Part shown: piece by piece, positions 41,655 through 46,014 of the stretch
Numbering within the stretch: position 1 is the stretch's first letter
How the letters are laid out: every line of letters starts with the position of its first letter
Origin: Natrinema sp. DC36
GTDB taxonomy: Archaea > Halobacteriota > Halobacteria > Halobacteriales > Natrialbaceae
Direction: 5' to 3'
DNA length: 64,000 nt
NCBI RefSeq assembly: GCF_020405225.1
Contig: NZ_CP084472.1
Location: forward strand, 1,612,001 to 1,676,000
Program-made: the position numbers and the translations under genes
The notes under the pieces: model-generated
Database searches by the model: none
The model's input: the letters and a program-made list of their open reading frames with translations, nothing else
What the model was told of the DNA's origin: nothing

Positions 41655-42011
41655 TTAGAAGGTGACAATCTCGTGGTCGTCGTTGATCATCGAGCGAATG
41701 CTCGGGTGACCGTCGTTGTCGTCGATGGTAACGACGCCGGCGTCGTCGACCGCTTCGTCTACACCGAACGCGCCGGAACAGTAGTCGCAGGCTGCGGCCT
41801 CGTCGCTGACGGATTGGTAGAGATCGTGGTAGTCGTGCTCCTCGTCTTCCAGTTCCGGGATCCACTGGGTCCCGGCACCGTCGAAGATGAGCTCGAGGTC
41901 GTCCTCGGGGTTCTCGGAGAACTCCTTCGCTGCCTCGAGTCCATTGACGAGACGGCCGAGGTCGCTGTGTGATTCGGTACCCGCCAGAATGATAATCGCT
42001 ACTTTCGTCAT
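41655..42011 (-). CDS. DsrE-family protein
   Basis: A 118-residue protein with the DsrE/DsrF fold: TKVAIIILAGTESHSDLGRLVNGLEAAKEFSENPEDDLELIFDGAGTQWI is the first half and ACDYCSGAFGVDEAV holds two nearby cysteines. DsrE proteins often take part in sulfur relay, with a conserved Cys on a surface loop; here CDYC could serve. It lies between top6B and a disulfide reductase on the same strand, but no operon is certain. Confidence 0.85.
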   Translation of the reverse strand: MTKVAIIILAGTESHSDLGRLVNGLEAAKEFSENPEDDLELIFDGAGTQWIPELEDEEHDYHDLYQSVSDEAAACDYCSGAFGVDEAVDDAGVVTIDDNDGHPSIRSMINDDHEIVTF

Positions 42012-43753: not shown

Positions 43754-44758
43754 TCACTCCTCGAGCGGCGGCCACTCCCACGCGTCAGCTTCGACCACGG
43801 CGAGCAGGCGACGGCGTCGATCGGTCACCTCCGCGAGGGCCTCGGCGAACTCTTCGTCGGAGACGGTCGGAATGTCGTCCTCCTGTAGCCGACCGAGATC
43901 CGGCGCGCGTGGGACGGCCGGCTCGGGTTCGATAAACGATTCGTCGAGCGTCTCGAGGAAACTCTGTGCGCTCGAGCGACCGGTTGCGATGATCGCGGGA
44001 TCGAGGCTCTGGTCGTCCGGAATTCCGTACCGAAAGAGCATGAGCGCTTCGTCGAGGATGGGGACGGCGACGGCGGCGGCTTGCTCGCCGTCTTCGCTGT
44101 GATAGTAGTGGAGGATGGGATAGGATTTGTGCTGTTCGGCGAGCATGCTCAGTTCCGACGCGAGCGACTCGACGGTCAACTCGAGGCCCTGGAAATCCTC
44201 GCCGGTCCAGCCCGTTCGGACGAGCGCTTCGCTTCGATCTCCCAGTCCCGTGACGGTACTGGCGAAGGAGCGTTTGTCGGAGACGGCCCCGAGGACGGTG
44301 AGCACGTACGAGACCCCGAGCGTGACGAAGGCCATGCCGGAGGCCGTCGTGAACGCGCTGGCAACCTCCCAGACGTTACCGCCGTACACCGGGGTGTAGT
44401 CGCCGTTACCGTCGGTGAACATCGTATAGGCAACGTAGTAGAATCGCCCCCACCAGTCGGCGGGGCCGCCGGTGCGCGAGTTCACCACGGCCATCGACTC
44501 GCTCGCGAAGATGAGCGTCCAACCGATCCAGATGAGCCCGATCCACATCGCGAGCGTGGCGGTGAGGATGATCGGCCCGGCGAGGCTGAGGGCCCTGTTG
44601 TGATCCCCCGTCACGATCCGGAGACCGCGCCAGATAGCGGTCGTCAGGTGGCCGGAAATCGGACCGGATCCCCCGTCGACCCAGAGGGTCGTCCAGAGGA
44701 TGTCTACGATTGCACCCGCGAGGAGGACGATCCCGGCGACGAGGTAGACGGGATTCAT
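43754..44758 (-). CDS. Two-pore-helix K+-channel-like membrane protein with altered selectivity filter
   Basis: A 334-residue protein. Helices are seen at MNPVYLVAGIVLLAGAIVDILWTTL, SLAGPIILTATLAMWIGLIWIGWTLIF and, after the pore segment, FTTASGMAFVTLGVSYVLTVLGAV, leaving a long soluble C-terminal domain. The pore region reads AYTMFTDGNGDYTPVYGGN: the pattern T-x-G-x-G-D-x-x-P of K+ channels (T-V-G-Y-G-D-x-x-P) is kept, but V and Y are replaced by D and N. This could be a cation channel of different selectivity or a non-conducting relative. Its start overlaps the SGNH gene's stop (ATGA), so the two are coupled. Confidence 0.75.
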   Translation of the reverse strand: MNPVYLVAGIVLLAGAIVDILWTTLWVDGGSGPISGHLTTAIWRGLRIVTGDHNRALSLAGPIILTATLAMWIGLIWIGWTLIFASESMAVVNSRTGGPADWWGRFYYVAYTMFTDGNGDYTPVYGGNVWEVASAFTTASGMAFVTLGVSYVLTVLGAVSDKRSFASTVTGLGDRSEALVRTGWTGEDFQGLELTVESLASELSMLAEQHKSYPILHYYHSEDGEQAAAVAVPILDEALMLFRYGIPDDQSLDPAIIATGRSSAQSFLETLDESFIEPEPAVPRAPDLGRLQEDDIPTVSDEEFAEALAEVTDRRRRLLAVVEADAWEWPPLEE

Positions 44759-46014
44759 TCCACGATTGCCCGACGCTCGACGACCTCGGCCAGCACGTTC
44801 GCGATTTCGGCGTTCGTTTCGGGGCTGTAGTGACCGCCCTCCCCGCGCTCGACGTACAGCGACTCGACGTCGCCGTCGTCGGGCGAGAGATGGGTCGCCA
44901 TGTCGATCGTCGTCAGTTCGTCGTAGCGTTCGTCGAGTCGATCCATCAAGTCGCCGTAGATCGGGCCGTGTTCGGACTCGTACGTCGCGTACCGAAGCTG
45001 CTGAACCATCACGAAGGTCGGTTCGAAGTCCTGCTCGTCCGCGTAGTCGACGAACTCCTGGATGAGCGCGTCGAAGAGGTCCTCGTGGGTATCGAACAGC
45101 CGCTCGTGGTACCGCACGCGGGGCTGCTCCAGTCGCAGCGCCGACTGGGTCTGGGCCAGATCGAAGTCGACTCCCGGAACCGACCGGCCGAGGCGGCGCT
45201 CGAGTTCCTTCCCGGCCGTATAACCGGCGTACCGGAGGTGTTCGTTCTTCTCGAGGAAGTCCGCCGTGTACGGCCGCGTCGCGAAGTGGGGCCTGAACCA
45301 GTGGTCGTAGTGGAAGTCGTACTCCCGGAGGAAGTCGGCCTTCGACTCGAGGTCGAGCAGTTCCTCCTTCTCGTCGACGGGACTCTCGACGCGCTCGAGG
45401 TCGCCGTTCTCGAGGACGTAGCGGGGTTTGACCGCGAGAATGTTGCCGAACTCCTGATAGTGTTTCCAGACGCTGAGGATGCGCGCGATCGATGAGGCGG
45501 TGACGACCATGAAGACGTGGTCGGTCGGATCGTCCGGGTACTGACGCTTGAGGCGCATAAGGGCCTGGTCGAGACCGTAGTTGCCGCCGCCGTAGTTGGC
45601 GACGTGGGTGTCGAGCTCCTGTGCGAGATAGTTCTGAAAGGTCTCGTCGTCGTCGACCTCCCGGCAGAAACAGTAGGAGTCACCGTAGGTCGAGACCGTG
45701 TGGTCGGCGTCGGGATCGCGTTCCTTCGCCGGGCAGACCCGACTCGCGTACTCGTCGGTCGAGTACGTAACCGTGGTCCGGACCTCCTCGCCCGGAAGGT
45801 GATCCCCCGTGTCCTTCTGTTTCTCCCGGTTGGGCTGGGGTACCCACCCGAGTTCGGGATCGAAGCTACTGAATTTTCCCAGTAACTCCCGATCGATCTC
45901 GGGGAACTCCTCGGTGGCGACCGAAGGGATCCGTTCGAGCGCTCGATACGACACGGCCTCGAGAATCACCGCACCGACGACGAGAGCGAGCACTATCGCG
46001 ACGAGCGGAAGCAT
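44755..46014 (-). CDS. Membrane-anchored SGNH/GDSL-like hydrolase
   Basis: A 419-residue protein with one N-terminal membrane helix (MLPLVAIVLALVVGAVILEAV) and a large outward-facing or periplasm-side domain. STYGDSYCFCREVDDDETFQNYLAQEL contains the nucleophile block G-D-S, VANYGGGNYGLDQALMRLK the Gly/Asn oxyanion block and GGHYSPETNAEIANVLAE the C-terminal His-containing block, so it is of the SGNH hydrolase/acetyltransferase family. A possible role is acyl transfer or ester cleavage on a surface glycan or lipid. It is coupled to the channel-like gene by ATGA. Confidence 0.75.
   Translation of the reverse strand: MLPLVAIVLALVVGAVILEAVSYRALERIPSVATEEFPEIDRELLGKFSSFDPELGWVPQPNREKQKDTGDHLPGEEVRTTVTYSTDEYASRVCPAKERDPDADHTVSTYGDSYCFCREVDDDETFQNYLAQELDTHVANYGGGNYGLDQALMRLKRQYPDDPTDHVFMVVTASSIARILSVWKHYQEFGNILAVKPRYVLENGDLERVESPVDEKEELLDLESKADFLREYDFHYDHWFRPHFATRPYTADFLEKNEHLRYAGYTAGKELERRLGRSVPGVDFDLAQTQSALRLEQPRVRYHERLFDTHEDLFDALIQEFVDYADEQDFEPTFVMVQQLRYATYESEHGPIYGDLMDRLDERYDELTTIDMATHLSPDDGDVESLYVERGEGGHYSPETNAEIANVLAEVVERRAIVE

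Follow-up and report, generated by a model that had tools for sequence, protein, structure and literature searches.

A predicted P-loop cation channel subunit with a TDGNGD filter, encoded beside an SGNH-like protein in Natrinema

The window analysed here, a stretch of 64,000 nucleotides from Natrinema sp. DC36, carries two overlapping genes on its reverse strand (Table 1). The upstream frame encodes an SGNH-like protein, and its stop overlaps, within an ATGA, the start of the downstream frame, which encodes a putative channel subunit. The channel translation contains YYVAYTMFTDGNGDYTP, in which FTDGNGDYTP corresponds to residues 114–123. When this filter is set against TVGYGD position by position, V is replaced by D and Y by N, while T, both glycines, D and P are retained. 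This is the reading given in a preliminary description of the locus, which had recognised the T-x-G-x-G-D-x-x-P frame and both substitutions.

Table 1. Features of the channel gene and the SGNH-like gene, in positions of the window.
Feature	Position	Strand	Basis
P-loop cation channel subunit (predicted), 334 aa	43754..44758	(-)	ORF; homologues; Ion_trans_2 in family; AF2
N-terminal transmembrane (TM) helix, residues 3–25, additional to 2-TM pore module	44684..44752	(-)	AF2, pLDDT ~93
Slide-helix-like element, residues 33–50, ahead of outer pore helix	44609..44662	(-)	AF2 helix
Outer pore helix (TM), residues 60–85	44504..44581	(-)	AF2; residues 61–156 superpose on KirBac3.1
Pore helix, residues 102–114	44417..44455	(-)	AF2; family alignment
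Selectivity filter TDGNGDYTP, residues 115–123	44390..44416	(-)	sequence and homologue filters
D116 codon	44411..44413	(-)	sequence
N118 codon	44405..44407	(-)	sequence
Inner pore helix, residues 128–172, with invariant G141	44243..44377	(-)	AF2; family alignment
Helical, putatively cytosolic domain, residues 176–334	43757..44233	(-)	AF2, all-helical
Signature YPILHYY, residues 213–219	44102..44122	(-)	common to archaeal and bacterial members
ATGA start/stop overlap of both ORFs	44755..44758	(-)	sequence; 28/34 closest homologues
Membrane-anchored SGNH-like protein, 419 aa	44755..46014	(-)	ORF; motifs; structural matches, low-confidence model
N-terminal hydrophobic anchor helix, residues 2–26	45937..46011	(-)	AF2 model and sequence
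SGNH block I, G111-D112-S113 (YGDSYCFC)	45676..45684	(-)	invariant across 14 homologues of at least 37% identity
SGNH block II-like NYGGGNYG, residues 140–147	45574..45597	(-)	homologue alignment, conserved as NYGxGNYG
SGNH block V-like G393-G394-H395	44830..44838	(-)	G394 and H395 invariant

The SGNH-like protein appears to resemble SGNH/GDSL esterases and acyltransferases (PbeAcXE, the OatA C-domain and PAF-AH) in its predicted fold, in blocks I and II and in the histidine of block V. The GDS of block I, with its nucleophilic serine, is invariant in 14 homologues and runs into an equally invariant Cys-x-Cys (GDSYCFC, 45664–45684, reverse strand), which is unusual beside an active site. His395 of the block V DxxH is invariant, and the motif reads ExxH in most homologues and is variable in the two most distant. 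The protein differs from these enzymes in the absence of the oxyanion asparagine of block III (GxND), where the corresponding stretch reads VTASSIARILSVWKHY and a displaced asparagine elsewhere may serve, in its length of ~420 aa with an N-terminal anchor, and in the absence of a Pfam or NCBIfam match. Nearly all of the top structural matches are SGNH/GDSL proteins (best Z 9.3), but they derive from an AF2 model with a pLDDT of 46.6, for which the alignment was too shallow. A sequence search of the PDB gave no match with the protein alone or with alignment A2 and only chance-level matches with alignment A3, and a phylum-wide search with A3 added nothing. The motifs and the fold comparison from this poor model speak for the SGNH fold proposed in the preliminary description, although the block III asparagine is missing. 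From sequence and model, the protein appears to be SGNH-like and may be esterase- or acyltransferase-like, although its activity is uncertain.

The ATGA overlap, also pointed out in the preliminary description, recurs in 28 of the 34 closest homologues, and 24 of the 34 have it with an upstream frame of more than 300 aa. It is confined to Natrinema and is standard there; in this genus the SGNH-like ORF is probably co-transcribed with the channel gene downstream of it, and the two are perhaps translationally coupled. The gene order transporter–TSUP–UspA–SGNH–channel–topoisomerase VI B is common in Natrialbaceae, so that the pair forms part of a wider syntenic block. An acidic 118-aa ORF (41655–42011, reverse strand), conserved in Natrinema, lies between the topoisomerase VI B gene and a dihydrolipoamide-dehydrogenase-like gene.

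The overlap with a long upstream frame and the order SGNH–channel–topoisomerase VI B across Natrialbaceae would both suit a single functional unit, for example one in which an acyl- or glycan-modifying enzyme gates the channel. Such a unit is nonetheless improbable. In Haloterrigena-type genomes, Natronorubrum and others, the two genes are 1.4–3.7 kb apart, with further genes in the gap, some of them seemingly oppositely oriented, and elsewhere the pair is unlinked. Among the genomes of the order, 49 by our count carry both genes, against 13 with the SGNH gene only and 81 with the channel gene only. Furthermore, three Natrinema lineages (L129, L139 and L141) have lost the SGNH core by deletions with different breakpoints and have kept the channel intact, which makes functional dependence unlikely. 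The remnants (L129:4613-5002, L139:3618-4004 and L141:3630-4004) are frames of 124–129 aa that still end in the ATGA of the channel; they are suggestive of a leader cistron with retained translational coupling, although DNA of this GC content commonly contains frames as long as these. The functional coupling suggested in the preliminary description is therefore not supported, the neighbour having been lost or unlinked in many channel-bearing genomes. The partnership is an ordinary gene neighbourhood, and the SGNH protein is dispensable for the channel.

The AF2 model of the channel, built from 39 sequences, has a pLDDT of 86.2 and shows the helices listed in Table 1 followed by an all-helical domain. 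The N-terminal TM helix carries a conserved D19-xx-WTT-xW motif, of which D19, W22, T23 and W26 are invariant in the family alignment. Helix 33–50 is probably amphipathic, and the pore topology would place residues 176–334 on the cytosolic side. H210, Y213, P214, L216, H217 and Y218 are invariant in the 39 sequences, and the YPILHYY signature is seen again in divergent Pontibacter paralogues; this H-x2-YP-x-LHY motif is a candidate ligand or gating site.

The pore module superposes on KirBac3.1 with a Z of 9.6 and an rmsd of 2.0 Å over 91 residues, on NaK with a Z of 8.2 over 82 residues, and on the NaK mutant D66N (PDB 2q69) with a Z of 8.1. Foldseek returned KirBac with a probability of 1.0 and, for the full channel model, no match with an E-value below 0.001; helical proteins of no relation lead its ranking by E-value, and what sets the pore matches apart is probability and Z. 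Profile searches matched Kv1.2 chimeras (E 2e-4) and NaK (E ~0.04), and the Kv rows listed align the filter onto the Kv filter, which rejects a chance motif. Ion_trans_2 (PF07885) matches 38 of the 39 family members. The channel protein alone scores 15.2 bits against a cut-off of 22.5 bits, and neither it nor the SGNH-like protein alone gave a Pfam or NCBIfam match above cut-off.

In the model, the protein has the TM–pore helix–filter–TM module that defines a P-loop channel subunit of the K+-channel superfamily, and its single P-loop per subunit suggests a homotetramer. The preliminary description had held that predicted structures lacking a central pore would speak against a channel; the single-subunit model shows TM–pore helix–TM, which answers the point at the level of the subunit only. 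It had also raised a receptor, and the protein could in that case be a non-conducting sensor or scaffold that keeps only the channel frame. The long conserved cytosolic domain with its invariant H-x2-YP-x-LHY and the sub-threshold Pfam score lean that way. However, matches to Ion_trans_2 reach E 2e-9 in other members, and the filter frame, pore helix and inner-helix glycine are conserved in archaea and bacteria alike, as is not expected of a dead pore. No evidence was found for a receptor, and this reading is very improbable.

Among known channels, KirBac3.1 and KirBac1.1 have the closest pore fold and share an interfacial helix ahead of the outer pore helix. The TDGNGD channel differs from them in its additional N-terminal TM helix, in its filter, which is not TxGYG, and in an identity of 15%; it is not a Kir or KirBac protein, as it has no C-terminal immunoglobulin-like β-sandwich Kir domain and residues 176–334 are predicted to be all-helical at good confidence. 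Similarly, the 2-TM pore modules of NaK from Bacillus cereus (TVGDGN) and of its D66N mutant (TVGNGN) superpose over ~82 residues, and the T-x-G-x-G filter has a small polar residue in place of Tyr78, which in D66N is likewise Asn. The TDGNGD channel is set apart from NaK by D at the V76 position, by a D80-equivalent where NaK has N68, by the additional N-terminal TM helix and by the large helical cytosolic domain. NirBacs are prokaryotic K+-channel relatives with altered, non-selective filters, such as TTGTD in NirBac2.1 (PMC4607889), but they are Kir-domain proteins with dissimilar filters, whereas the TDGNGD channel retains the T-x-G-x-G-D frame. A K2P identity is rejected by the single pore helix and filter within 334 aa, as against two P-loops per subunit.

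The unusual filter is conserved across dozens of related species. An acid occupies the V76-equivalent position in all 70 close homologue entries (>72% identity; GAC in 66 and GAG in 4), which include some repeats of one genome, and the filter of the closest homologues reads T[D/E]GNGDY[T/S]P. dN/dS is 0.10–0.32 for the channel gene and 0.05–0.27 for the SGNH-like gene, both far below 1; judged by these ratios, both genes are under purifying selection. Conservation and dN/dS together rule out a sequencing error or a pseudogene.

Of the 392 genomes in the order, 130 encode members of the channel family, often several each. A pattern-plus-tblastn scan of the genome collection found 248 relatives, of which 80 were kept; these are mostly haloarchaeal, with others from Oceanobacillus, Planococcus, Alkalibacterium, Pontibacter, Chloroflexi and Gemmatimonadales. 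Essentially all of the ~139 distinct homologue rows keep the T-x-G-x-G-D-x-x-P frame. The Y78-equivalent is N in 129 rows, I in 9 and T in 1, never Tyr or Phe, so that the canonical TxGYG or TxGFG filter is absent. Part of these rows were fetched by filter pattern, which biases the count at this position for those rows; whole-genome searches without the pattern gave the same picture. The V76-equivalent is D in 39 rows, N in 31, L in 30, M in 26, S in 8, E in 2, V in 2 and A in 1. The divergent Pontibacter paralogues listed have TLGNGDF, TLGVGDYV and TLGVGNYQP, with N or V and in no case Tyr or Phe at the Y78-equivalent. In three relatives (L101, L102 and L195) the filter reads TLGNGG, and the D80-equivalent is lost as well. 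A Gemmatimonadales MAG (L180:538-2605) carries tandem family channel genes with the filters TMGNGDFYP and then TLGIGNIVP, possibly a heteromeric channel. Homologues that kept a normal filter would, according to the preliminary description, have pointed to an error; their filters are non-canonical too, and the protein represents a branch within a family whose filters read TxG[N/I/T]GD rather than an exceptional single case. No report on a GNGD-type filter or on this haloarchaeal channel family was found in the open-access literature, and the family is apparently uncharacterised.

The genome of the window itself encodes two paralogues of shared architecture with a hydrophobic residue at the V76 position: L071 (TMGNGDFTP, 54% identity) and L072 (TLGIGDLVP, 47% identity). 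It also encodes channels with TVGYGD, TVGFGD and TLGYGD filters, so that ordinary K+ channel roles are covered and the TDGNGD protein probably has another task. A further Ion_trans_2 locus of this genome, L221 (G000:C3:311225-311446), contains a TAG in frame and is possibly a pseudogene.

In a midpoint-rooted tree of 137 sequences, from which the filter columns were left out, only two changes between polar and non-polar residues are required at site 116; one falls within Natrialbaceae, the other within a second haloarchaeal clade with TDGNGDF/Y (L074, L075, L078 and L080). With this root, the V76-equivalent would have changed twice from Met/Leu to a polar residue (D/E/N/S/A). Sister genera have Asn and a Natrialba branch has Ser at site 116, the rest being conserved. 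Tyr108 and Ser134 accompany a polar residue 116 in 80 of 80 rows, the second clade included, and Phe108 is found in 49 of the 57 others; this covariation represents two evolutionary events, or one to two independent pairs, too few for a statistical test.

In KcsA, the side chain of V76 lies behind the filter, by residue 71 and M96 (PMC8943062). Counting from the filter, Y111 would be the equivalent of KcsA E71, Y107 and Y108 of W67 and W68, and F114 of T74; Thr138 would correspond to M96 if G141 matches G99. With Tyr111 and Thr138 at these positions, the pocket around Asp, Asn or Ser 116 would be lined with hydroxyls. It is proposed that side chain 116 points behind the filter, adjoining Tyr111, Thr138 and perhaps Tyr108, and that the polar network around it tunes filter stability or gating in the role of KcsA E71, the acid lying outside the ion path. 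It is also conceivable, more tentatively, that the family has rebuilt the filter without the Tyr78 cuff and has twice acquired a polar or acidic residue at the V76 position, so that the stabilising acid, which in KcsA sits on the pore helix as E71, was transferred to the filter strand. If true, the result would be a naturally evolved filter, suited to molar salt through new selectivity or through pH- or ion-dependent gating.

Alternatively, a binding site might be formed by a ring of acids at the V76 position together with a ring of asparagines at the mouth, making the channel selective for, or blocked by, Ca2+/Mg2+ or Na+. The genus has kept the acid, which appears again independently in the second clade, and NaK and CNG-like filters are established to bind divalent cations at the Y78-equivalent position. 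This reading is unlikely, however: Asn in sister genera and Ser in the Natrialba branch imply that the charge is not essential, and side chain 116 is expected behind the filter.

The preferred reading, with a probability of roughly 0.55, is a gated homotetrameric P-loop channel with relaxed K+/Na+ selectivity and a polar network behind the filter, for which the SGNH protein is not needed. Each gene product would be one subunit of this channel, with a filter of the family TxG[N/I/T]GD, and gating is probably under the control of the cytosolic helical domain with its YPILHY motif. Without the Tyr78-equivalent, the filter would lack the aromatic cuff by which its outer sites are held. NaK, whose TVGDGN filter has two ion sites, is non-selective, and selectivity is seen when that scaffold carries TVGYGD, as in NaK2K (PMC9822992); NirBacs are K+-channel relatives that have lost selectivity in nature (PMC4607889). 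From these comparisons, replacement of Tyr78 is predicted to relax selectivity, and by analogy with NaK, discrimination between K+ and Na+ would be weaker than in a TVGYGD channel.

Against relaxed selectivity, TxGNGD retains both glycines and the D80-equivalent that is absent in NaK, so that K+ selectivity could survive. The channel may possibly be K+-selective in the normal way, with backbone carbonyls forming the K+ sites and Asn118 and Asp116 replacing the Tyr78/Glu71 hydrogen-bond network. Both filter glycines, T115, D120 and P123 are retained in nearly all members, D116 is conserved through GAC and GAG codons only, and filter side chains other than Thr normally face away from the pore (PMC8943062). 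Nevertheless, no family member has Tyr or Phe at the Y78-equivalent position, and replacement of the Tyr and Asp in the NaK filter is the difference between non-selective and selective (PMC9822992). With a P-loop subunit predicted and a non-canonical filter in place, the cation channel of changed selectivity named in the preliminary description stays the best reading.

Haloarchaeal cells maintain molar KCl in surroundings of molar NaCl. So K+-rich an interior speaks for a selective channel, and one of poor selectivity would come at a high cost to the cell unless it were tightly gated. The selectivity of tetrameric cation channels is mostly understood from engineered filters, such as the conversion of NaK to NaK2K or NaK2CNG. 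The present family is a natural series on one scaffold, with L, M, D, N, S, E or A at V76 and N, I or T at Y78, in related species and in paralogues of the same cell. This series makes the need for an aromatic residue at position 78, and the effect of a polar side chain behind the filter, directly testable, and it is also relevant to the handling of cation leak by haloarchaea, whose cells contain molar K+ and are surrounded by Na+.
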